From NCBI GenBank assembly GCA_943704525.1, contig CALSCQ010001049.1, positions 1 to 22,796 of the forward strand: a stretch of 22,796 nucleotides of DNA, read 5' to 3'. The notes beneath the pieces are model-generated. The model was given only the letters and a program-made list of their open reading frames with translations, was not told where the DNA came from and ran no database searches. Source of the DNA: Pigoraptor vietnamica. Lineage: Eukaryota; Opisthokonta; Filasterea. Made by a program: the position numbers and the translations under genes. This document shows, in pieces, positions 4,667 to 22,784 of the stretch; the first letter of the stretch is position 1; the number at the start of each line of letters is the position of its first letter.

Positions 4667-6597
4667 TCACACGCCGTATACAACGCGCAGTGTCTGTCGC
4701 GGACGCCTGAAAAGGCCCAAGCCGTCCCAGCTGAGGCATAGATAGAGCATCCATACGACAAACGCAAACGACATGGCAGCGCCCTCGATGGCCAGCTCGC
4801 GCTCGTTCCAGACGAACAGGTCGTGGTAGTAGCGCCACACGCCAATTCCAGCGAAAATGGGCGCGCCGATCACGACAAGGAGTGCGGGAAGCAGCCCAAA
4901 CACGGCGATGCCGGAGAATGCCGACGCCACAATCGCGGCTATCGAGTACGCCGTGAGTGTGCAACAATCGCCGTGCGCAACACCGGACGCGCCCACGACA
5001 TCTCTCGACGCGCGCGCTACTGAGGCGTCGTCGGACGGCAACAGCGAAGCAGGAAGAGACAGCGGCAGGTCGGCGGCGCGATTGATGCGGAGGCTCACGC
5101 CGAGTGGAACCGTGCGCGCGTCGTGTAGGCGGGTACTGGACTGGCCGACTCCTGCAAACACGACCATTCCCGCGACGGCGAGCATGCACGCGAGGCCGAG
5201 GAGGCGCAGCGAGACAAATTCGGACCGCACATGGCCGCTGAAGAAGGTGAGACCAGGCGCACGTCAGACGCAGTAACATAGACCGACAAAGCAAAAAAAT
5301 TGCACACGCGAAACTGCATCGGTCACATCCCGCGCGCCGTGCAAGCAACGCACCGGCACACGTTCCACCAGGAGTGCTTGTAGAGCATCCAGAACGACGG
5401 CGTGTCGTCCGAGCGCCTGAGAAGAGGCAGGGATACGGAATCGTCGTCGTCACCTGCGTGAAAAACAGAGTTCCGTCAACATGTGTGCAATTACAAACAA
5501 CTAAGCTGCCTGTCGACTCCCTCAAACGCACAGCTGCAACAAACACCGTCCTCGTTCAACTGCCCACTCTCCACGCGCACAGCCACTTCAGAATGCCCAC
5601 CGTCCTCGGACTCCTCCTCGTATTCGGCGCTGTTGACGCGGCGTCCGTCCGCAGAGAGCATGTAGGCCCACGTGCCACGCTGGTCCACGCGCTCGCACGT
5701 GGGACATTGCATGCGGCCCTTCGAATTGAAGTAACGTCCCGCGCACTCAAAGCTGCGCGAAAAAAACAAAGCGAAACAGATCCTAGTTGAGATAACTCTC
5801 CTCTCTTGCGTCACCTTCCGCACTCCCTTTGCGCTGCTCAGAACAGCCACACGACCACCACAACAGAATCACCTCTAGCACTAGTCACGGCCATGAAGCA
5901 GAGACCCACTGAAATTCGTGGCGACAGCGGAGGCGGACGATGCTCCTCCGCCATCCGCTGCGGAAGTCGTCGCCGCACTGCGAGCACACGCACGCCTCCA
6001 AGTCCTTCGATCCGAACGGCAAGCCCACTGCGCGCGTCGTTTCACAAAACTCATCAGCCACAAATGCGCACGACAACAGCAACAGGGCACCTGGAACCAC
6101 ACCGTCGATAAGAACTGCAAGACTCACTCACAAAGTAGTGAGACGCCCATACACCCACCGACGCGAGGCACCGCCGACCGCGTCGACTGCTGCTGGGCCA
6201 TCTCGCACGACCACTCGGACCGCTCCACCGTCTGGCAGTACGGACAGCGCATCTGATTCACGCGATTGAATTCGCTCCCAATGCACGACATGCTGCGCAA
6301 AAAATGACAACAGGAGACTCAGTACCGACATTACCGTCGTACGCACCGCACTCTCCTCCTCCAACAACTCCTCCATTCACAGGTCCAATGAAATCGTGCA
6401 GGAGCCACCCACTGAAAGATGTGACCGCACGTGAGCGTGACATCCACGCGCTTCTTCGAGCCGAGCTCTTCGTAGCAAATGGGACACTCGCTCTCCGACT
6501 TTGTTGTGCCTGTGCTGCTAGCATTCTCTTCGCTCAAACCGCCGCCGCTCTCAATGTCGTCAGGCCGTCCGCGGCTTCGGCCGCTTTCGGCATCCAT
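4667..6597 (-). CDS. Membrane-anchored protein with two RING-H2 fingers, probable E3 ubiquitin ligase
   Basis: Six exons: 6597-6413, 6292-6159, 6114-5910, 5752-5547, 5453-5354 and 5237-4667, giving 466 residues in one intact frame. RING1 (residues 38-81) reads CPICYEEL, CGHIFHMSC, CPYC; RING2 (150-194) reads CSQCGDDF, CRHEFHFEC, CPTC. Both are complete C3H2C3 zinc ligand sets. Both are split by an intron in the same histidine codon (CA|C) with the same donor GTGGGT, so one arose by internal duplication. The C-terminal part has hydrophobic segments near 288-308, 370-411 (long enough for two helices) and 429-447, so it should be membrane-bound; VVPGALLLLSCAFVA between the RINGs is weaker. Transfer of ubiquitin to membrane substrates is inferred from the domains. 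Intron 2 is taken as 44 bp (6158-6115). Exon 4 could instead end at 5601, dropping 18 residues without a frame change. ATG 6597 precedes RING1 in frame. Confidence 0.8.
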
Positions 6598-7056
6598 CGG
6601 AGTTGAGCTCGACCGAGACGACACACAATAGAAGGATACTGTGACCTTTGCTAGCCGCGCACGAGCGACAGTATGCCGCTTTGTACGATTTCACGCAGCG
6701 GACTCGAACGGACGTGTCGCGCAATTACACGCGATAACACGAGCCAATCGTCGCAGCTCACCCACGCACACGCTCGTACGCACGCAGACAACAGCACATG
6801 CGCGTCCCACAGCAAATTCGCACGCCCTCTTCTTGCCATGCCCTGCCGCAACAACGGTGCGCACTTGTGAGCCGTGCCGCAAGCCTCGATGACGGAAACA
6901 ATCGCGCGCAACGGCACATCCGGGGTGGTACATTTGAAACCGCTGTGGCTAGGTCACGTGCTCGACAACGAAGTGGAGCGCCCGGCACATCGCGTTTACG
7001 CACTCCGAAACAAACGCGAGAGGAGCAAAACAGAGACACGCCACAATACTCCTCTT
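6598..7056. other. Divergent intergenic region between two-RING and methyltransferase genes
   Basis: About 460 bp separating genes transcribed away from each other, so it probably carries both promoters. It has many short ACGCACG-type stretches and no exon that I can support. A TTCGAGTCC string on the minus strand near 6690 suggests a tRNA B box, but no T-arm stem forms around it. No TATA box is evident for the minus-strand gene. Confidence 0.6.
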
Positions 7057-7963: not shown

Positions 7964-8041
<78 letters not shown>

Positions 8042-8880
8042 CACGCGCAAACACACACGCACTCTCTCACTCTCTCACGCAAAGGATTTCAACGAACCCT
8101 TCGACATATGCATTTCTCTCCACGCGTGCGGCAACGCTTCGGACTACGCTCAAGTGCAGGTGCTGCGCTCTTTTCCATCGCCATGTGCTCCCTTTTCAAC
8201 ATACTCACAGGCAATCTCAACTGTGGCCCACAGGCCATGATTCGTGGCGCGGCGTTTGTGCTGTGCCCCTGCTGCATCGGGAAGCTCCAGCACAGCATCG
8301 ACTACAACGAGGGCCGCGACGTCCCCGAGTTCACGAAAGTGTCGGCTTCTTCGCACGGCGCGTCCATCGGCCATCACGAGCGCAAGTCTGCGCACGAGTT
8401 TCGTCTGACCCACCCGCGGTCGTCATGGCTCTCGGTGCACGTGACTGCTGCCGAATTTCGACACCTTGCGGCTGCGGCTGACTGGTCCGAGTACGACTTT
8501 GATAATGAGGAGGTACTGTGGGTGAAGTTGTTGTTGCATTGCAGCCGTCTGCATTGGGCGCTTGGGTGCTACGCAGGCGCTTAATTTGTCTGCGCGCACT
8601 GATTGGTGTGTGGTGTGACTGGGCGCAGAATGACTGGCGGCGCGTCTGCAAGACCCTGCTGGAGCTTGATCGCAATCACGCGGCAACGGAGGCTGGCTAT
8701 TCTGTGTGGGTACTCCGCCGGGGCGTGGGCCTGTCTGAATGCGCTTTGTTTCTGACGTTGTTTGGTCTCTTTCACAGCTGGCTCACAAAGCTGCGACCCA
8801 TTGACGCCTCGCCCAAGAACGACGTGTTAGTGGGAGTCTCCAGTGGGCGCGCTTTCGACCCGTCGTCGCTATTTCAATAG
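7102..8880 (+). CDS. GSTCD-type SAM-dependent methyltransferase (Methyltransf_32-like)
   Basis: Six exons, 7102-7581, 7682-7846, 8085-8159, 8234-8512, 8629-8705 and 8778-8880, give 392 residues. Introns are 100, 238, 74, 116 and 72 bp; donors include GTGGGT twice. The SAM-binding motif I is IVDFGSGSGNFSLPLA (from residue 159), followed by FVLVDLREKALEIAAERA, the acidic motif II. Then come ISLHACGNASD and FVLCPCCIGKL, the pair of motifs typical of the GSTCD/METTL25/RRNAD1 group, and SPKNDVLVG near the end as in GSTCD. The first ~100 residues are basic and charged; there is no GST-like domain, unlike animal GSTCD, so this is a shorter relative. Its substrate is not known; an RNA target is a family-based guess. 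Intron 2 carries a 70-bp (AC)n tract. The start follows a TATA box and gives an uninterrupted first exon. Confidence 0.8.
7965..8034. repeat. (AC)35 microsatellite in intron 2 of the methyltransferase gene
   Basis: A pure 70-bp AC tract, followed by imperfect ACGC and CTCTCA units up to the splice acceptor at 8084. It makes up about a third of the 238-bp intron. Confidence 0.95.
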
Positions 8881-9329: not shown

Positions 9330-11117
9330 TCAGTCGTCAAACTTCATGTGGACCTTCTCCTTCATCGGCTTGCCGTCATCCTCCTTAAAGTGCGCGCCGT
9401 ACATCTTGTGCTCCTTTCGCTTGACGTGCGTGCCAAACTTCATGAGCGCCTCGGGCACCTCCTGGTTCGCCTCGCGCAGCACGTTGACGAGCTCGCCAGA
9501 GTGCGACTTGTCGTTCACCGTGAAGAGCGTGTGAGACGTGCCCGTGCGACCGCCACGACCCGTGCGCCCGATGCGGTGGACGTAGTCCTCGATCGTCAGC
9601 GGGAACGTGTAGTTGAGCACGACCTCCACCTGCGGAATGTCGAGGCCGCGCGCAGCGACGTCCGTCGCAATGAGCAGTGGGCACGTGCCGTCCTTGAACG
9701 ACGAGAGAGCGCGCGTGCGCTCCGCCTGCGTGCGGTCGCCGCTGATCGCCTGTGCCGCCCACCCGCGGCTGGCGAGCATGCGCTCCACGCGTCCGGACTC
9801 GGCCTTGTAGAGGACAAACACGAGCACGCGGTTCTTCCGGCTCGAGTGGTACTTCTTGAGCAGCTCGAGCAGACGCCGGTCCTTGTCCTTCGGGTCCACA
9901 ACCTCGACAATCTGCGTAACGGCGTGGTTCGCGCACAGCTCCGTGTTGCCGACCGTCACGCGCGCCGGGTTGGCGTTCAAAAACTCGCTCGCGAGCGCCT
10001 GCACCGACTGCGGCCACGTCGCGCTGAACATGAGCGTCTGACGGTCGCGCCGCACCTGCGAAAGGAGCGTCCGCACGTCCTTTTCGAACCCAAGATCGAG
10101 CATGCGGTCGGCCTCGTCCAGCACCGCATACGTCACAGACGACAGGTCGCACACACCCTCCTCGCAGAGATCGAGCAACCGGCCAGGCGTCGCAACGCAG
10201 ATCTCCACGCCGGCCCTGAGCGCCTGGCGCTGGGGACCCTTGTCGACGCCACCGTACACGCAGACGCTCCTAACGCCGCACGCAGCACCGGCAACCGCCG
10301 CGACCTCGGCAATCTGCATGGCGAGCTCGCGCGTGGGCGATAGGACGAGCACGACCGGTCCGCGCCGCCCCTTCTTCTTTCCGTTCTTGACCTGATCGAG
10401 CAGGTGCACAAGACCCGGCAGAAGGAAAGCAATCGTCTTGCCCGTGCCGGTCGCGGCAATGCCGACGACGTCGCGGCCGGCCAGCGCGAGGGGCCACGTC
10501 TCACTCTGGATGGGCGTGGGACGCTCAAAGCCCTCGCACGCCTTGAGCAGCGACGGCGAAAACGTTGACACGGAGAACGCGAGAACGGGCTTGTGGTCCG
10601 ATCCGTGGACCTGAATGTTGTTCGAGCTGCGGAACTGGGTGATCTGCGCGTGCGTCAGCTTGGACGTGTCCGCGTGTTCCCTGTAAAAGTCCTTGCGGAA
10701 GGCAGCGGAGGACGACGTCGTCGAAGCACCGAAAGACTTCGGCGCGGGCGACGGCGCCTGAGAAGGCGCTTCGGCGTCGGTCATTTCCACATCGGCAAGG
10801 GCCGCACTGGAGGACATGTCGACATCCGACGACGATCCCTCGGACGTAGGGGCGCTGAGGGCCGTCTTGCGTTTGAGCTTCTCCGCGCGCTTCTTCTCCT
10901 TCTTGGCGCGCTTCTTCTCCTTCCGACGGCGCTCCTCGGCGTCCGAATCGGACCGCTCCTTCGAGGACTTTTCGCTCTTTTCGTGCTTTGCGCGTTTCTT
11001 GTCGCCCTCCGCGGCAGCATGGTCGCTGCCATCGGCGGCGTCGGCATCCTCGGTGCGCTTGCGCTTCTTCTCCTTGAGGCCCAGCGCAGCCACCGTCTCG
11101 ACGTCCGTCGGCTTCAT
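9330..11117 (-). CDS. DBP3: DEAD-box ATP-dependent RNA helicase, DBP3 type
   Basis: A single uninterrupted frame of 595 residues. An RNA helicase that remodels pre-60S rRNA in the nucleolus in yeast; the same role is inferred here. All DEAD-box motifs are present: Q motif FERPTPIQ (198-203), motif I ATGTGKT (222-228), PTRELA, GG, TPGR, motif II DEAD, SAT, then VFVLYKAES, ARGLDIP and HRIGRTGRGG. Residues 12-85 are a very lysine/arginine-rich nucleolar-type tail (KEKKRKR, RRRKEKKRAKKEKKR), followed by an acidic/serine region. The C-terminal tail KFGTHVKRKEHKMYGAHFKEDD matches the DBP3 signature, in contrast to other DEAD-box subfamilies, which supports the symbol. ATG 11117 is chosen over upstream in-frame codons because it begins the usual lysine-rich tail directly. 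A frame with no introns among intron-rich neighbours is notable but common for highly expressed genes. Confidence 0.93.
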   Translation of the reverse strand: MKPTDVETVAALGLKEKKRKRTEDADAADGSDHAAAEGDKKRAKHEKSEKSSKERSDSDAEERRRKEKKRAKKEKKRAEKLKRKTALSAPTSEGSSSDVDMSSSAALADVEMTDAEAPSQAPSPAPKSFGASTTSSSAAFRKDFYREHADTSKLTHAQITQFRSSNNIQVHGSDHKPVLAFSVSTFSPSLLKACEGFERPTPIQSETWPLALAGRDVVGIAATGTGKTIAFLLPGLVHLLDQVKNGKKKGRRGPVVLVLSPTRELAMQIAEVAAVAGAACGVRSVCVYGGVDKGPQRQALRAGVEICVATPGRLLDLCEEGVCDLSSVTYAVLDEADRMLDLGFEKDVRTLLSQVRRDRQTLMFSATWPQSVQALASEFLNANPARVTVGNTELCANHAVTQIVEVVDPKDKDRRLLELLKKYHSSRKNRVLVFVLYKAESGRVERMLASRGWAAQAISGDRTQAERTRALSSFKDGTCPLLIATDVAARGLDIPQVEVVLNYTFPLTIEDYVHRIGRTGRGGRTGTSHTLFTVNDKSHSGELVNVLREANQEVPEALMKFGTHVKRKEHKMYGAHFKEDDGKPMKEKVHMKFDD

Positions 11118-11410
11118 TCTCTTGGAAATAAAACACAACGAAGGACTCTTTACAAGATTTGGAACAAGTGGCCACTGATTTGTCCGTCGATCGCTTTGGC
11201 CTCTCTCACAACGTGCGGGCATTGCACGTGGTAATTGCCGTGTGCCATGTTACCCGGCCGTCTCCAATTTGGCACTAATTGTGCCGAGCTCTCGGGTGCG
11301 GTAACGTGTACATTAATGTTACATCCTTGTTACAACGAAATAAATAAAAAGAAAGCGGTAGGTGTCAGGAAAGCGGCGACAATTGCTGAATTGACGCCGG
11401 CCCAATGGTT

Positions 11411-14400
11411 TCAAACGTCCGAAACCTCCGGCAGTGTCTCCGCGTACGTTGCCGTCGCCAGATCGAGCGGCTCCGTTTCGGCGTAGGCGGACTGGAGCAA
11501 AGTGTCCTGCGATTCGTTGAGGGCCATCGTCTTGGTGACGAGCGTGGACTGCGTGCGCTTGCCCACGCCGTCGTCGCCCGAGTTGGACGCGGCGCTCTCC
11601 GTGCGGCACAGGAGCATCACGGCACGGCGCAGCTGGTTCGCAATGTCGGTGAAGCTGGGGCGCGTCTCCGGATGCTTGCGCCAGCACGACTCCATAATGG
11701 CGTAGATCTGTGGAGGGCACCCATCGGGGCGCTCGAGGCGCTTGCCAGTCCCCACTACTCAAGTGAAACGAAAAGGATTCACATGAGAGTAAGTGACACG
11801 CATTTTTGACAACCAGAGTGCGGTTTTAACGTACGGTAGTGAAGAACGTCTTGATTCTCGACGCCCGCGTACGGTTTGATGCCCTGTTCGTCGGTGGCAA
11901 TGTGAGACAAATGCGTCCGTGAATCCGAGTTGTCAAACATCTCACCTTCGAGTAGATTTCCCACATCGTCACGCCGTAACTCCACGCGTCCGAAGCCTGG
12001 AGAGGGGGAGAGGCGAATGAGTCACATGAGATAGATAAGCATGCGCCAGCACGTGCCAACTGAACATTGGCGGCTGTCGCACCGAAGTGAAAATCCGCCG
12101 CTCGAGTGACTCGGGTGCCCTGCAGGGTCGACAGGTGAGTGGAAATGGCAGAACGGCGGCTACCATGATCGACATTATGACGCCTACGCCCCACAATCCT
12201 ATTGCCGGAGCACTCGGGCCAACGGAGCTCCCCCCCTCTTCTCCCCACCACACGCACTCACATCCATTTCACCGGAAGCTTGATGCGCGACTTGGCCCTA
12301 CAAACAACAACAATTCGGCGCAGTTAATCTCCAATTCAGGCGCAGAGTAGCCGGGATACGTAGGCTCGCGCGCACACCTGTAGTAGTCGCCGCCGCTGCC
12401 GGCGTCGCGCGACAGACCGAAGTCGGCGATCTTGACAATGACGTTCGCCTCCGAAGACAGGCGCCCGGTAGCCGCCGCCTCCTGCTTGCTTGTCGGGCGC
12501 GGCGCAACAACCATGCAGTTGCGCGCCGCGAGATCTCTGAGAGAGCAATGTGGGCGAATGGCACGTGAGAAGAGGTCAAACTGACTGGTGAGAAGAACGA
12601 TGGTGTGCGTGCGTGACACAAAGTTGACAGAGTGACGGTGTGCAGTAAACGTGCCTGTGCACGATCTGCGACTTGGCTAGCTGTTCCATTCCACGGGCGA
12701 CATCGAGACAGAACACGAGGCAGTCGAAGGGTTGGAGGCCCTTCGCGTGGTCGGTCACAAAGTGGCGCAGGTCGCCGTGCTGCGCGAACTCCAGGATCAC
12801 TGCGATCGCGCAAAGTGCCATCTTAGAAGAAATGCGAAGTTCGGGGTGTGACTAGGCGTGCGAAAAGGCACAAGCGACTGATACTGCGCAATGAAGTGTG
12901 CACTTACTTGCGTTGGGTTCGTCCCTGCGGTTAATGGCACGCATGCGTGTGAGCCAACGCACGTGAACACATGGGGCGTCACAAGGCGTGTCACGTGGAC
13001 CACTTACTGCGTGCACACGCCCAGCAGGGCAATGATATTAACGTGGCGGGGCACTGCGTTCGCAAGGAGAGAAAGACGTCAGAACAGCCGCGACTGTCGG
13101 AATAAGCGCGCGGCTGCTCTTGCAACGACTACTCATCGGCCCAACAGGCATACTGTTCCACAGTGATTGCCTTCTGAGCTAGAGAGCACGCACATGCCGG
13201 CTACTCTGCTAAGTGTAGAACAAATGGCTGGGGACAATTGAACGCACCCGTGCGCATGAGGTCAATCTCTGCCATGAATGCGCTGCGTGCGCTGCGGAGG
13301 CCCTGCGCGTCGAGGTTTGTGATCTTGAACGTCTTGATCGCCGCCGTGCGCCGCTCGCCGGGCTTGAGTTCGACCTCGCCCGCGTACACTTCGCCAAACT
13401 CTCCCTCTGCGAAGGCCAAGGGACGCACAGTGAGAAATGCAGAAGATCGAGAGAGGAAAAGGAAAATACGGTATGAGGCATTAAACGTTTGACCAACACA
13501 GCCGCACTCGGCGAAGAAGACAGTTTCCCACACGCACCGCCAATGCGCTTGCCCAGCTTAATGCAGCTCCCGGGAATCTCCAGCTCGGCAATCTCCGGTC
13601 GCCGCACGACCGTGTCGATGAGGTCGAGCTCCGAGCGCGCAAGAGCCTCGCGCTTGGCACGCTTGCGGCGACGCCAAAATACGAACGCGCCGACCGCAAG
13701 TGCGCTGACGCCGAGGATGGAGCCAACGGCGCTGCCTGCGACCGCGCCTGCACTCGCCCCGGACGACGACTTTACTGGCAGCGTCGTGTCGGATGTCGGC
13801 GCAGGGACGAGGAAGGGGTCGGTGGGCTTCGAGGGCCGAGAAACACCGTACGCATTCCTCAAACGAATGGTGTAATTGTACGAGCGACCAGGTTGCACCT
13901 CAATGTCGTCGTACTGCCCGTGCGTGCGGTTGGACCCGGATATGTTGAACCAGCGACCGTCCGAGCGGAGAATGTACTCCTCGAGGATGGGCCCGCTGCT
14001 TTCGTCCTCATCCCACGTGATGCGCATGGCTTTCGTGGCGTTGTAATAGTACGCAGCGACCGTCTTCGGGGCGTCCGGTGGGTCCGTCGGCACCGCCTCG
14101 ACGAACGGCAGCGTCACAGGCTTCGACCGCGTGAGATTCCGGAGGTTGAGCGGATTCAGAGCCGTCACGACGTAGGCGTACTTCTGGCTGCGCGTGATGT
14201 TACGTGTGTCGGTATAGTTCGTCTGGTTGAACACCTGCGTTATGGGCGGCGGTTAGCCCGGCCCTGCGCAGGATGCGCCGAAGTGAGGTGGCAGCCACCC
14301 GGACATGCAAAAATACAGCTGCAATGCGAAAAAGTCCCCACGTACCCGCACGACATCGACGATCGGGCACCCGAGCCGTTCAATCTCGTAGCCCCACACG

Positions 14401-15234
14401 GCGTCTCCGGGATCGAGCGTGAGCACAATTTCCTTCGCCGACCACTTTGTGACGTTGGCTGCCGCCGGCGACGCGGGCACGGCGAGATCGGAGCACGTCT
14501 CACCACCCCACAGAATGCCGCACGTGCACGCGCCGGTGAATCGGTCACACGTACCGCCGTTCTCGCACCTGCACGGCACCGCGCAGTTGGGCCCGTAATA
14601 CGATCGGCCGTCCACAGCAGTGCACGGGGCGCTGCAGTCGTAGCCGGTCCACCCTGACGTGCAATTGCACGCGCCGGAGAAGCGGTCGCACGTCGTCGCG
14701 TTGTGAAGACATGAACATGGTAAAGCGCAGTTGGCACCCCACCGAGTGCCCTCGCACGGCGTGCCGCAGTCGTTCCCCGTCCATCCTGACGTGCAGTTGC
14801 ATGCACCGGTAAAGCGATCGCACTCGGTCGCGCCGTTGAGGCAGGCGCACGGGCTGCTGCAGTTGTTGCCGAAGCGCGTCGACGGGCACGGGGTGTTACA
14901 AGTGTCGCCGTACCATCCCGTCACGTTGTTGCATCGACAGACCCCGGTGAAGCCATCGCACATTGTCGCGCCGTGGTAACACAAGCAGTCCGTTACGCAA
15001 CCAGGTCCGTGCTTCGTGGGCGGGCACATCGAGTTGCACTGGGGCATGGTGCGACAGGAACGGGATGGGTATGAGTAATCAGTTAGGCACGAAAGACTAT
15101 AACTGCACGCGACACCCACAGAGGAGACACTCAGGCGCACGCATATGCGCGAACACGCACGCATGCACACACGCGTGCATGCCCACGCCCACGCACGAAC
15201 ATACACACGGCACACACGCACGTGCGCCACGAAA

Positions 15235-15314
<80 letters not shown>

Positions 15315-18300
15315 TGTCTCCTCGCCATCCCGACAGGCACGTACACGATCCGTTGAATGGATTGCACGCCGCCCCATTCATACACTCGCAGGTGGAGACG
15401 CACGACGCCCCATATCTATCGCCCGGGCACGTGACATTGCACGTCGCTCCCATCCAGCCCGCCGTGCACGTGCACGATCCGTCCACGGGATTGCACACGG
15501 CGCCATTTTTGCAAGGACAGACGCCGATGCACTGGAGACCGTAGGTCCCCTGCGAACATTGAGTTCCGCAGTTCACGCCCGTCCAGCCCGGTTTGCACGC
15601 GCACGCCCCGCTGAAGCGGTCGCAATCGCCGCCGTTCTGGCACGAGCACACACTGCTGCAGTTGGCGCCGTACGTTGTATTGGCGCACGGTTGCGCGCAC
15701 GTCGGGCCCGTCCATCCCGCCGTGCAATAGCATACTCCCGTCACGTGGTCGCACGAAGCACCATTCGCGCACGTGCAATTTCTGGCGCAGGCGAGTCCAA
15801 AAGTTCCGTCGCGACACGGCGCATCGCAAAGGTCGCCCGTCCACCCCGCCGTGCACGTGCATGAGCCGTCGAACCGGTTACAATTAGCCCCGTTCTTGCA
15901 TAGGCACTTCTCCGCGCAGTTGCTTCCATACGTCGTCGGCGTACATTGCGTGTCGCACGTCGCGCCCGTCCATCCCGCCGTGCACGCGCACGTGCCATTG
16001 AAGCGATTACACGCGCCTCCGTTTACGCACGCGCAGAGTGAGCTACAGTTGCGGCCGAAGGTGCCAAGAGGGCATGCGAGTGAGCACGCCGCACCCGTCC
16101 ACCCCGCCGTGCAAATGCATGTGCCGTTGGTCGGGTAGCAGTCTGCGCCGTTCGTGCAGTTGCAAGTATTGGCGCACCCGAGTCCGAACGAGCCCTTCGC
16201 ACACGGCGTGTCGCAGTTCGTTCCCTGCCAACCGGCCAAACAGGTGCAGCTTCCGTTAAAGCGATCGCAGGCGCCGTTTACGCAAGTGCACTGGCGAACG
16301 CAGTTGGGCCCAAACATGTTGCCTGGGCACGGCTGCGCGCATGTGCTGCCCGTCCAGCCATTCAAACACTGACAATTGCCGCCGGTCACGGGATCACAGC
16401 CGGCTCCGTTTGCGCACCGGCACGGGCGGGTGCAGTTCGGGCCGTACGAACCGAAGGCGCACCTGGCATCGCACTTCGTCCCCGTCCACCCAGCAATCGA
16501 GGAACAGTTGCAAGCGCCTGTCACAGGATCGCACGAGGCCCCGTTCGCGCAATCACAATCGCCTGCGCATTGCAACCCCCATGTGCCCGACCAGCACGGC
16601 GTGTCACAGAGTGCTCCCCTCCACCCCGCCTTGCAGAGACAGCCGACGTACTGATCGCACACGCCATTACCCGAGCAGCCACGACAGCTTTCAGTACAAT
16701 TCCGACCGAAGTAGTCGAATGGGCACTCCGTTGTGCAATTCGGTCCCGACCAACCGGCACCGCAGAAACACGAACCGTCGATTGGGTTGCACGTCGCTTT
16801 CTCCGGGTTCGACACACACGGGCATGAAGAGGGCTGCGAGCACCCACCGCCATAACTACTTCCAGTACAGGGAGTAGCGCAGTTATCGCCTATCCAACCG
16901 TCGTAGCACGACCATCTGCTGGGAGTGCACGTGCACGCGCCGCCCTTACCGGAGTTGCAACATGTACGGGTGGCCGTCTTCGAACACTGGGCGCACTGAG
17001 CGCCTGTACCGATGCAGCTAAACACGCAATTTGGTCCCCAGTTTTTCTCCGAACACGGCGTGTCGCAATTCGAGCCGGTATATCCGGCCGCGCAGATGCA
17101 CCCGACGTACCGATCGCAGGTAACCGCGTTCTCACAGTCGCACGTCGACGTGCAGTTCGGGCCGTACGTATTCGGCGGACACTTATCGTTGCAACCCGAG
17201 CCCGTGAACCCGGAAGCACACGGGATATCGCACAAGGGGCCTGAAAATCCACTCGGGCACCGGACGTCTAAACGCGGCAATAAGATGTAAGGTTTTCATC
17301 AATTTTGAGAAGGAAGGGCTCTGCGCAGTGCCACGGCCCACTCACCGCGACAGTCCTTCTGCGAGCCGGTCGGACTCATGTAGCCGTCACGACACTGGCA
17401 GGTGTTGGTTCCCGGTCCAGTCATCGTACAATCGGAGTTGGCGCCGCACCCGCCGTTGCTCGTAACGCAAGGGTTCGTCGCTGCGACGAGAGACAATCCA
17501 ACGATCCAAACAATCAATGTGACTGATAAACAAATCTCACAAGCAATAACACAATAAAGACAAAACAACTCACGTTCACAGAAACCGCTTGAGTTCGTAG
17601 AAGGACGGCTGTAACCCGCAAAGCACGTGCAGTTCGCCTTCCTTTGTGGCGTGGGAGTGCAGGTGGAAAACGGCCCGCAGTTCCTGGTAGAAGAGAGTGG
17701 AGAAGACGGAGCATTTAGTCAAACTGAAGCGCTGGACAGTGGCACTGGAGAGGCGAAAGGCCAGACAGGATTCGCTGAACATGAACACAAACGAATAAAC
17801 TGTTTCCCGAAACTCTCACGGACGGGATATGGGCACGAAGAAAAGTGAGCGGCAAGGGCAAAAGGAGTGCTGACGGTGGTGATCGCGGTGTGTGTGTGTG
17901 TTTCTTCAGTTGTGTGTTGCGACCTCTGACTTACCCATTATTCACGTCGCAGTCGGTCGGCTGGCGGCACGAGCGCCCATCGTTTGTGTTGCTGACATAG
18001 CCCGAATTGCACTGACAGCGCGAGGCTGTGACGTTGCAAGTGGAGTTCGACCCGCAGTTTTCGCAGCCGACCACAGCTGTGAAGTGAGATTGCCCCGACA
18101 ATGTCAGTTTCACTGAATACTCTCATCCTATCTTTCGAGCCTCCCACTGAAAATGAACCTCCCATCAGCGTGTCAACGGTCACGTACTCACCAACGCATT
18201 TTCTCCCATCATTGGAGAGGGACATGAAACTCGGAAAGCAAGTGCACGAGTTCGTGCCGACGCCAGTTTGGAGACACGTCGAGTTGCCGCCGCAATTTCC

Positions 18301-20710
18301 GTTGTTCAACTGGCACGGATTCACGACTGCGACGAGGTAAACCACATGTGAGCTGGCTACGTAGTGACACGACAGACCCACAAACACCGTGAGCATTCTA
18401 ACGGAACCCACGTGAACAGTTCTTTCCGTTGTTGGTTGGGCTATAGAACGACGAGTTGTAGCACGCGCACGACGACACGGTCGGCGACGGGTTCGTACAC
18501 ACAGCGTTCGTGCCGCACAGGGCTTGGCTCGTCGTCAGTGTGCACGGGTTGGTTACTGCATCGGCGCAGAGGAATGATCAGCCATAGGAGTTCAAAACTT
18601 TTAGCTGCAGAGGAGAAGGAACCACGTGCCTGCGCAGAACTGTGACGAAAGGTCGAGGGCGGTAGCATTGACGGACGCGTCGCGGAAGATTCCGTCGGAG
18701 CGGCACTGGTACGTCTTCGTGTTCACAAGCGTGTAACTCCACTTGCACGAGGCAGAGCAGCCCATTCCAGTCGGCGCGCTGGTTGACGAGAGCGTCGTGT
18801 CGCACGAGAAGGTACCGTTTGTCACGGTGCCTCCGGGGGTGTTGCACGCCGTGTATGTCGTGCCCGCAACAAAGTACATCGAATTCGGCAGAAGTGCCTG
18901 AAACGTCGCCCCTTCGTGTCGAATGGTGATGGAGCTCGCCGTCCACTTGTCGGTCACCGTCCACGAGTACTGCTCGATGCGAAACGCGATCGTGACGATG
19001 TTCGGCCCAACCCACGGCATCACGAATGTGGCGCGGAGAGTGCTGTATGTCGAAAGTGCCGAGCCGACGACGAACTCTTCCGTCTGCAGAGAACACATGT
19101 TAGAGACGGAGAGAGAAGTGGGACAGGACGGGGAGTGCCGACGGAAAGATAAGACCAACCTTATTTGACCCTGTTCCGAACAGTGTCATGTACAACTTCC
19201 CAGGGCAGCCCTTATCCCACGTGCTGACGGTGACGTCATAGCTTGCGTATCGAATACAGGCGGTGTTCCCAGACGCCGGCGCCGACGGGGTTGACGTATT
19301 GTACCCCGGCATGCAAGGGCCACACGTCTGCGGCGTGTCGCTGCAGGGGAGCCGGTTCAACACAGCGCAGCTGGCGGCCGACGTCTGGCTGCAGTCCGGA
19401 ATGCACGACGCGCTGTCGAGTGACGCCGTCGACTTCAAATCCGCATCCGGGAGATAGACCGTCGCGGGCCCGCCGAGAACGTATCCGGAATCACAGATGA
19501 CATTGCAGGGCTTGCCTGGAAACGACGACACGCACGTGATCTGCCCGTTCGCGGGGAATCCGGACTCCTTCGTAGGCGGCGCAAAGAGATACGTGGTGCC
19601 GACGTCGATGGTGTCGTTCTTGGGATCGAGGTTGAACCGGAGCGTGCCGGGGAAGGCCTTGTTGTCGTCCGCGAAGATCTCAAAGTAGAGGGGCAGCCAC
19701 CAGTTCGTGTTGCCGTTGCTGTTGTAGTCACAGTCGATCTTGATCCCACGAAGCGCCTCAAAGCCGAAAAACGTCGAGGAAAACGTGTAGCGATAAGTGG
19801 CGCCCGCTGACATCGCTTGCGGGTTGCCGAGAAAACTGAGGGGGTTGAGGTAGATGGGTTGGATGTGCGAAAGGCCCAGCGCGCCGACCATGTCGAACTT
19901 GCACGGGATGTCTGTGCCGGCACCGTTCGCACCCGAAATGGTCATCTTGATCGAGTACGAGATCGTCCACACGGAACACTTGAGGTTCGCGTCGCCAACG
20001 GACGACGCAATGTCGCCGTAAACTGCCGTGCCGTCGCTGTCGCTAGTGGTTGTGCACGGCCCGCACGTGTCGGGCTTGCGACACGTCTGGCGGTTGTAGT
20101 ACGAGCACGATGACGGGGGATTGCAGCTCACGGCGCACGTGCCCGCCTTGTTCGGATACCCCGTGAACGAACTTGACGATGACAGCGGACACGAGGCAAA
20201 GGTAGACGTCGACGACGTATAGCCCGGGCTGCACACGAGCGAGCACCCGTTGCCGCTGTTCTGCGCGAGCGATGACTGGCAGTTGAAGTAGCCGTTCGCG
20301 GGCGCCGCGGGCACAGCGCAGATCATAAACTCCTTTCCCCCGACGCTGTCGACGAGGGCGTCCGTCGACACAAAGTTGAACTGATAGGGCACGCCATTCG
20401 CAATCACGATGATGCGCTCGGGGATCCAGTCGTCCGAGCTTGTGGTGAGCGTGACGCCGATGCGGTAGAGCGTCCCGACGTTGACAGTCGACGATATAGT
20501 CGTGTTGAAGCTTCGAGTGCTCACACCGCTGGCGACCTTGATGGCACCCGTGGTACCTGTCGACCCGAAGAGTCGAAAGTAGATGGAGTTTGTCGTGAAG
20601 CCATTCGCCGCCGTCCAGAGGGACACACTGTAGGCGTTCTGCGCGGACGCACTGCCGAAGCACAGCGCGACGAGAACAACGGCGCAGAGCGCGCGCGCTG
20701 ATCGGGCCAT
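11411..20710 (-). CDS. Receptor tyrosine kinase with PLAT-like, EGF and FN3 ectodomain
   Basis: Twenty exons (20710-19160, 19083-18630, 18555-18412, 18326-18192, 18076-17935, 17683-17574, 17480-17346, 17267-15313, 15038-14346, 14234-13538, 13406-13248, 13053-13008, 12924-12908, 12799-12655, 12536-12378, 12297-12262, 12119-12083, 11996-11946, 11883-11835, 11754-11411) sum to 7059 nt, 2352 residues, in one frame. Signal peptide 1-23; PLAT-like domains near 26-118, 246-372 and 489-610, each followed by a cysteine-rich CCP-like stretch and, twice, a TCGPC motif; five NPC-type EGF modules (669-890); about 20 MEGF-type EGF repeats (891-1725); two FN3 domains; helix 1936-1960; then RRRKRAKR. The kinase is complete: GEGEFGEV (2005-2012), K2030, E2052, HRDLAARN (D2129), DFG (D2166), YY 2179-2180, PVKWMAPES, SDAWSYGV. 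The tail has YAETEP and YAETLP. It should bind an unknown ligand and phosphorylate tyrosines at the plasma membrane. The last exon may begin one codon earlier. Confidence 0.92.
12537..12654 (-). other. GC-AG intron in the RTK catalytic loop
   Basis: Exon 14 ends ...GTGCACAG and the intron begins GCACGT; the next exon begins AGATCTCGCG after CTCTCAG. Only this join yields the invariant HRDLAARN. Any nearby GT donor gives the wrong frame. It is therefore a GC-AG intron with donor AG|GCACGT. Confidence 0.85.
14490..17267 (-). repeat. Tandem EGF-repeat coding array in the RTK gene
   Basis: About 20 repeats of ~43 codons (about 129 bp) follow one another in exons 8 and 9, with the pattern GWTGxxCxxxC...GxxC...C.C.NGxxCxRFxGxCxC. 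The units are diverged at DNA level, so this is an old array and not a recent expansion. Intron 8 (15039-15312) interrupts it inside one unit after GWRGDK. The repeats resemble MEGF10/SREC/Tie-type EGF stretches. Confidence 0.9.
15237..15312. repeat. (AC)38 microsatellite at the donor of RTK intron 8
   Basis: A pure 76-bp AC tract. On the minus (coding) strand it reads (GT)n and begins exactly at the splice donor, so the donor GT is itself the first repeat unit (AAG|GTGTGTGT). Degenerate CACGCAC/CATGCA units continue to about 15130. Confidence 0.9.
18556..18629 (-). other. GC-AG intron after the third PLAT-like/CCP-like module of the RTK
   Basis: Exon 2 ends ...TTCTGCGCAG and the intron begins GCACGT, the same donor hexamer as in the catalytic-loop intron. 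Joining to TAACCAACCC restores the EGF start VTNPC in phase 1; the only nearby GT (in CACGTGG) is in the wrong phase for the EGF module. Confidence 0.7.
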
Positions 20711-21387: not shown

Positions 21388-21496
<109 letters not shown>

Positions 21497-22703: not shown

Positions 22704-22745
22704 CTGCTTGTGCGCGTGTGCTCATGCATGCGTTTGCGTGGGTGT

Positions 22746-22784
<39 letters not shown>

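Follow-up and report, generated by a model that had tools for sequence, protein, structure and literature searches.

A PLAT-headed receptor tyrosine kinase of Pigoraptor vietnamica and a kinase-less receptor with the same predicted head, consistent with head swapping at a phase-1 intron

Introduction

For many receptor tyrosine kinases (RTKs) of the unicellular relatives of animals the ligands are unknown. The variety of their ectodomains is credited, in general terms and in the available sections of one study, to domain shuffling (PMC3584944). Can a single shuffling event be followed in the DNA itself, and what would it say about how such receptors are put together? We address this question with one contig of the filasterean Pigoraptor vietnamica (C418, analysed over its full 22,796 nucleotides and called the window below), for which the original prediction was a lineage-specific RTK whose ectodomain starts with three PLAT-like plus cysteine-rich modules.

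The gene in the window

On the minus strand, from 20710 to 11411, the window holds one complete RTK gene of 20 exons and 2352 codons; this is a predicted gene model, in which exon ends were picked by eye on reading frame, splice signals and domain continuity and were then frame-checked. The region singled out in the original prediction, 18630-20710, was placed to the base: 20710 is the A of the ATG (CACCATGG), 18630 is the final base of exon 2, and the interval comprises exactly exons 1 (20710-19160) and 2 (19083-18630), which together encode residues 1-668. Eighteen further in-frame exons follow, up to the stop at 11411. Seventeen of the 19 introns are GT-AG and two are GC-AG, an uncommon type; both GC-AG introns (intron 2, from 18629, and intron 14, from 12654) have the identical donor AG/GCACGT. 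The corresponding donors in related genes are GT (contig C1230 for intron 2, contig C816 for intron 14), which lends support to these two splice sites. The 5' start of intron 8 is a perfect 76-base dinucleotide tract (15237-15312), the first repeat unit of which is the donor GT.

The predicted protein begins with the ATG and a signal peptide (residues 1-24, 20639-20710; hydropathy 1.9 over residues 5-23), and the head encoded by exons 1 and 2 is followed by five EGF-like modules in exons 3-7 (residues 669-891, 17346-18555), where Pfam EGF_3 exceeds its cut-off at 31.3 bits. Exons 8-9 (14346-17267) encode a long EGF/laminin-EGF-like array and the start of an FN3 region (22.5 bits, below the FN3 cut-off of 25), exon 10 (13538-14234) encodes FN3 region as well, a membrane helix (residues about 1936-1960, with the hydropathy peak at about 1941) and the start of the kinase, and exons 11-20 (11411-13406) complete the tyrosine kinase and add a short C-tail with two tyrosines, both in YAET. 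The kinase domain scores 284 bits against PF07714 and has GEGEFGEVYAG, AAIKTF, HRDLAARN, DFGLSR and LPVKWMAPE, that is, the predicted catalytic residues; among the best 60 of 886 PDB chains, the closest are EGFR, Mer, UFO and FGFRs. The ectodomain, of about 1900 residues, is cysteine rich (213 cysteines). Signal peptide, ectodomain and single membrane helix thus all lie in one predicted in-frame gene, the same one that encodes the complete tyrosine kinase, as had been proposed, and we are confident that the model describes a complete, single-pass, PLAT-headed RTK of a unicellular holozoan.

The gene belongs to a large kinase family, as judged from 117 exon-level matches of its kinase in the genome at E <= 1e-10; genome-wide profile matches number 150 for kinase and 27 for SH2 domains. 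By eye, the related kinase loci have varied ectodomains, including laminin-EGF plus FN3, LRR-like stretches nearby (contig C180) and a Calx-beta-like stretch (contig C77). Integrin beta is above cut-off on three contigs and below it on a fourth, and cadherin repeats occur on two contigs. The consulted part of one review lists integrins as present in filastereans, ichthyosporeans, Corallochytrium, Syssomonas and Tunicaraptor (PMC8061703). Taken with the SH2 and tyrosine kinase matches, the integrin and cadherin content fits a unicellular holozoan, perhaps a filasterean.

Elsewhere in the window, a single-exon DEAD-box helicase lies directly downstream of the RTK gene (9336-11219, minus strand; DEAD 156.9 bits, Helicase_C 103.4 bits), and a RING-finger-like exon (6382-6687, minus strand) reaches at best 23.5 bits against a Pfam cut-off of 27.3. 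Long (AC)n tracts occupy 7965-8062 and 21389-21490. An apparent inverted repeat at the contig end (21951-21994 versus 22738-22781), in which YFAGIHTHTH..PHPRKRMHEHTRTS is read on both strands, is possibly an assembly artefact.

A second receptor with the same head

Is the head private to this kinase? When the 668 residues are searched against all 1395 contigs of the genome (32.5 Mb) at E <= 1, four matches are returned on two contigs, the RTK's own and C1230, and C1230 is the sole other place where this search found the head. The new observation is that the predicted PLAT head is not private to the kinase. The C1230 gene model is intact (19 exons, 1554 amino acids, 18 GT-AG introns) and encodes, in order, the three head modules, five EGF-like exons, additional EGFs, a membrane-spanning helix with a hydropathy of 2.52 at residue 1336, and a 199-residue tail without a kinase. 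Over the 889 codons of the front, the two genes have an amino acid identity of 0.885, a dS of 0.32 (interval 0.27-0.38) and a dN/dS of 0.19 (0.14-0.24), a ratio that demonstrates purifying selection on the predicted front that they share. Within the head, constraint is strongest in the second module, module B (dN/dS 0.066, interval 0.02-0.15), and weakest in the first CCP-like stretch (0.39, 0.20-0.80).

The kinase half has its nearest relative elsewhere. The gene on contig C816 shares with the RTK the laminin-EGF-like array, the FN3 region, the helix and the kinase, in 13 exons whose ends correspond; in the whole-protein comparison it is matched only from about residue 1111-1113 onward, and it is not among the matches of the 668-residue head search, so that the kinase half is common to the two genes and the head is not. 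C816 lacks a counterpart of RTK residues 892-1110, for which the rest of the genome offers nothing closer than a match of 42% identity. The C816 receptor starts with a domain other than the PLAT head; its N-terminal exons looked Jagged-like by eye, a label that we dropped when no Pfam match was found. The shared back halves are 78% identical in protein, with a dS of 0.83 over 1213 aligned codons; when the part ahead of residue 1192, where the match is poor, is left out (residues 1192-2352, 1145 codons), dS is 0.79 (0.69-0.90) and dN/dS is 0.13-0.19. The description of this gene as a lineage-specific receptor stands as far as our searches reach and is incomplete, because the head also belongs to a receptor without a kinase, and the kinase half also sits behind another head.

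The intervals for the dS of the front (0.32) and of the kinase half (0.79) do not overlap. Because the front pair is the younger of the two, the head would have moved after the kinase genes had parted. Where, then, does the shared block end? Introns 1-6 of the RTK and C1230 can be aligned (72-88% identity over 69-183 aligned bases), whereas in intron 7 (17268-17345, phase 1) agreement extends 10 bases past the splice site and then stops. At the other end, the two genes are alike from about codon 4 onward and differ in their 5' flanks. The shared block thus starts in the signal peptide and ends in a phase-1 intron, and such a block is the classical form of exon shuffling; exit from exon 7 and entry into exon 8 are both in phase 1. 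In our judgment these observations make it highly likely that the head and its five EGFs are a module that was moved between receptor genes by recombination at this intron, a process that we refer to as head swapping. The direction could be either, from the kinase gene to the tail gene or the reverse. Given that a nearly identical outer end is found on a kinase-less sister receptor, the sensing end of the RTK looks like an exchangeable part.

What the two receptors might do

If two receptors have one head, do they also have one ligand? The C1230 tail offers a starting point. Six of its 13 tyrosines lie in YxxP, a docking pattern for Crk/Nck-type SH2 domains, against 0.98 in shuffled tails, and a count of six was equalled by only 1 of 10000 shuffles. 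An ITIM-like reading of the tail was rejected, since its two motifs of that kind were equalled in 407 of 10000 shuffles, which is within chance. No relatives of the tail were found in the genome.

We speculate that the head would bind a ligand common to the RTK and C1230, perhaps a surface lipid, glycan or protein, and we lean slightly toward this being so. On the assumption that both receptors are expressed in the same cell, such a ligand would, in the simplest mechanism, bring them together, the RTK kinase would phosphorylate itself and the C1230 tail, and the phosphorylated tail would in turn dock SH2 proteins, a class in which the genome is rich (27 SH2 matches). Phosphorylation of the C1230 tail by the RTK is a conjecture that we would not yet expect to hold. 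Taken as an explanation of the whole, the best that we can offer is that head swapping gave rise to two receptors, one with a kinase and one for docking, which probably have a ligand in common, and we give this an even chance. A fuller version, in which intron-mediated swapping created a split receptor system, with one selected PLAT/CCP head presenting the same ligand to a kinase and to a trans-phosphorylated YxxP docking receptor, is put forward more tentatively still, as an idea with perhaps a third of our belief.

The most serious competitor accepts the swap and has the two receptors act apart: the head would be a general adhesion or matrix module, and C1230 would signal through cytoplasmic kinases, for example, Src. 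We regard this as a real possibility, if one short of even, for ectodomains appear to have been widely exchanged among the RTKs of this genome (eight related kinase loci carry, by eye, EGF, FN3, LRR-like or Calx-beta-like parts), and in the sections seen of a study of Monosiga an RTKB2 tail peptide is also a substrate of MbSrc1 (PMC3584944). However, selection holds the common part in both copies, and most of all in module B, a pattern that fits, without proving, a common binding site, as the common-ligand proposal would have it.

Is the joint real?

Could the contig instead be a misassembly, in which the front of one gene was joined to the kinase half of another? In principle an assembly switch could have happened here, since C418 and C1230 agree in all of the 32 bases that span the exon 7 splice site, and a C1230-like front and a C816-like back are both present separately in the genome. 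Nevertheless, the front of the RTK (88.5% protein identity to C1230) differs by 11% and its back by 22% from the related loci, so the contig is not a join of C1230 and C816. The match in phase between exon 7 and exon 8 also speaks against an accidental joint, and had C418 and C1230 been switched reciprocally, the genome would all the same have a kinase and a tail receptor, each with a PLAT head. We consider a misassembly very unlikely.

The modules of the head

What is the head made of? Its PLAT modules had been assigned by eye; put to the Pfam profile PF01477, the 668-residue head scores 36.6 bits (E 8.4e-9), above the family cut-off of 23, and the C1230 head scores 32.2 bits. Taken one at a time, the modules are weaker: in the RTK, module A (residues 25-125, 20336-20638; best Pfam stretch 27-113) reaches 22.3 bits, just below the cut-off, module B (residues 238-375, 19586-19999) has no match, and module C (residues 487-598, 18841-19252, with intron 1 at 19159-19084 inside it) reaches 14.5 bits, while in C1230 module A alone reaches 24.4 bits and B and C alone have no match. 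Single modules too weak for the threshold also explain why an exon-by-exon Pfam PLAT search of the genome at E <= 0.001 gave 32 matches and none on the RTK contig. Twenty-one of these 32 lie in tandem on contig C935 (18884-26870), an array that we take to be LOXHD1-like; other short PLATs of extracellular type occur on contigs C838 and C8, beside a Ser/Thr-rich stretch and a TSP1-like stretch, respectively (by eye).

A second profile was built from the genome's own PLATs, using 21 of the 32 matched domains (11 of the 21 on C935 and 10 of the 11 from elsewhere) and none from the PLAT-headed RTK or the C1230 gene. With this profile, RTK modules A, B and C score 22.7, 14.7 and 9.7 bits, equalled by 0, 0 and 1 of 2000 shuffles, and the C1230 modules score 23.0, 13.8 and 9.7 bits, none of them equalled in 2000 shuffles each. 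As controls, five stretches of the RTK (two FN3, one EGF, one laminin-EGF and one CCP-like) give -1.3, -0.1, none, none and -0.1 bits. On the whole RTK protein the profile places three domains, at residues 31-115, 252-337 and 491-574 (14.4, 7.3 and 1.3 bits; i-E of 1.7e-6, 2.8e-4 and 0.02), the third of them weak. Among 230 sliding windows along the RTK, none starting at or beyond residue 660 exceeded -0.2 bits, and among 150 along C1230 the best such window had 1.5 bits. Module B also has the GAGTD stretch of the genome's PLATs. At the level of sequence profiles, then, the proposed trio of PLAT-like modules is upheld: we take module A as PLAT, find good support for module B and regard module C as probable.

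Structure-based and wider searches were less informative. A search of solved-structure profiles returned one chance match for the module A alignment (formate hydrogenlyase, E 1.3), none for module B and no PLAT; hhalign with two-row alignments of module A did not separate PLAT (E 0.017) from an FN3 control (E 0.0064); and scans of viral and prokaryote contigs, among which there are few or no eukaryotes, gave no relative of module A or B. An alternative identity as PLAT look-alikes, with beta-sandwiches of some other kind (C2 or FN3-like), is suggested by the want of a solved PLAT match, by the FN3 control coming out ahead and by the Pfam scores of modules B and C, and is nevertheless highly improbable given that the whole-head score exceeds the PLAT cut-off in both genes, that all three modules rise above shuffles and above the FN3, EGF and CCP controls and that module B shares the GAGTD stretch with the genome's PLATs.

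Behind each PLAT module there is a cysteine-rich stretch, as had been noticed, and the CCP label given to these stretches is where the original prediction has to be softened. The Sushi/CCP profile PF00084 scores 15.3 bits in the RTK head, in stretch A (residues 126-237, 20000-20335), and 20.4 bits in C1230, at the place of stretch C (residues 599-668, 18630-18840), both below the cut-off of 20.7. By hhalign, stretch A resembles stretch B (residues 376-486, 19253-19585) at E 9.3e-6 and stretch C at E 2.5e-4, and the remaining pair gives E 0.058, so that likeness is seen in two of the three pairs. The repeated motifs were read correctly, with NG.[FI].C in all three stretches (residues 139, 388 and 606) and NR..C..TCGPC in the first two (residues 196 and 440). 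We call the stretches CCP-like only.

Comparison with known systems

PLAT/LH2 domains occur in LOXHD1, polycystin-1 and lipoxygenases, with which the RTK head shares PF01477 by sequence score. We know of no RTK with PLAT, and a literature search that combined the two terms gave no PLAT-bearing RTK in titles and the beginnings of abstracts; a published mention is possible, since the principal premetazoan kinase surveys (Suga 2012 and Manning 2008) lay outside that search.

Two animal systems invite comparison. Paired immune receptors, such as the Siglecs and CEACAMs, have nearly identical ectodomains and different signalling ends, as do the RTK and C1230, whose fronts are 88.5% identical over 889 codons; in contrast to those pairs, the RTK partner has its own kinase and C1230 carries mainly YxxP rather than ITIM or ITAM. 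In the choanoflagellate and Capsaspora papers searched, nothing relevant on ITIM or immunoreceptor tyrosine-based signalling was found among titles. In ErbB2/ErbB3, a kinase receptor phosphorylates a kinase-poor docking partner, and by analogy the RTK may act on C1230 as its docking partner; unlike ErbB3, C1230 is without any kinase domain and has an unrelated back half, and the heterodimer is only proposed.

Among unicellular holozoans, RTKB2 of Monosiga brevicollis is, in the sections available, the closest in outline: a single-pass RTK whose ectodomain combines an SCR/CCP domain, five EGF-like modules, a Cys-rich domain and hyalin-like repeats and whose tail carries tyrosine docking sites (PMC3584944). 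It resembles the Pigoraptor receptor in its CCP and EGF-like modules, the CCP part of the latter being CCP-like only, and differs in that PLAT appears in no description of RTKB2 that we met there. The same sections describe how, in the choanoflagellate RTK families (RTKA and others), kinases that are related carry ectodomains of many kinds, a diversity put down to duplication and domain shuffling (PMC3584944). What distinguishes the Pigoraptor case from these descriptions is that the head is also found on a kinase-less receptor and that the point of the swap can be placed in one intron.

Outlook

What does this locus mean for the receptors of unicellular relatives of animals? One step of shuffling can be read in the DNA, where the introns match as far as the breakpoint in the phase-1 intron 7 and the two halves differ in age. 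As the head of an RTK, PLAT is unusual, and it suggests the sensing of lipids or surface proteins. A kinase receptor and a putative docking receptor with the same head provide a handle for finding the ligand and for asking whether the pairing of receptors predates animals. If the proposal is true, paired receptors and kinase/docking pairs would have a pre-animal counterpart in this split receptor system.
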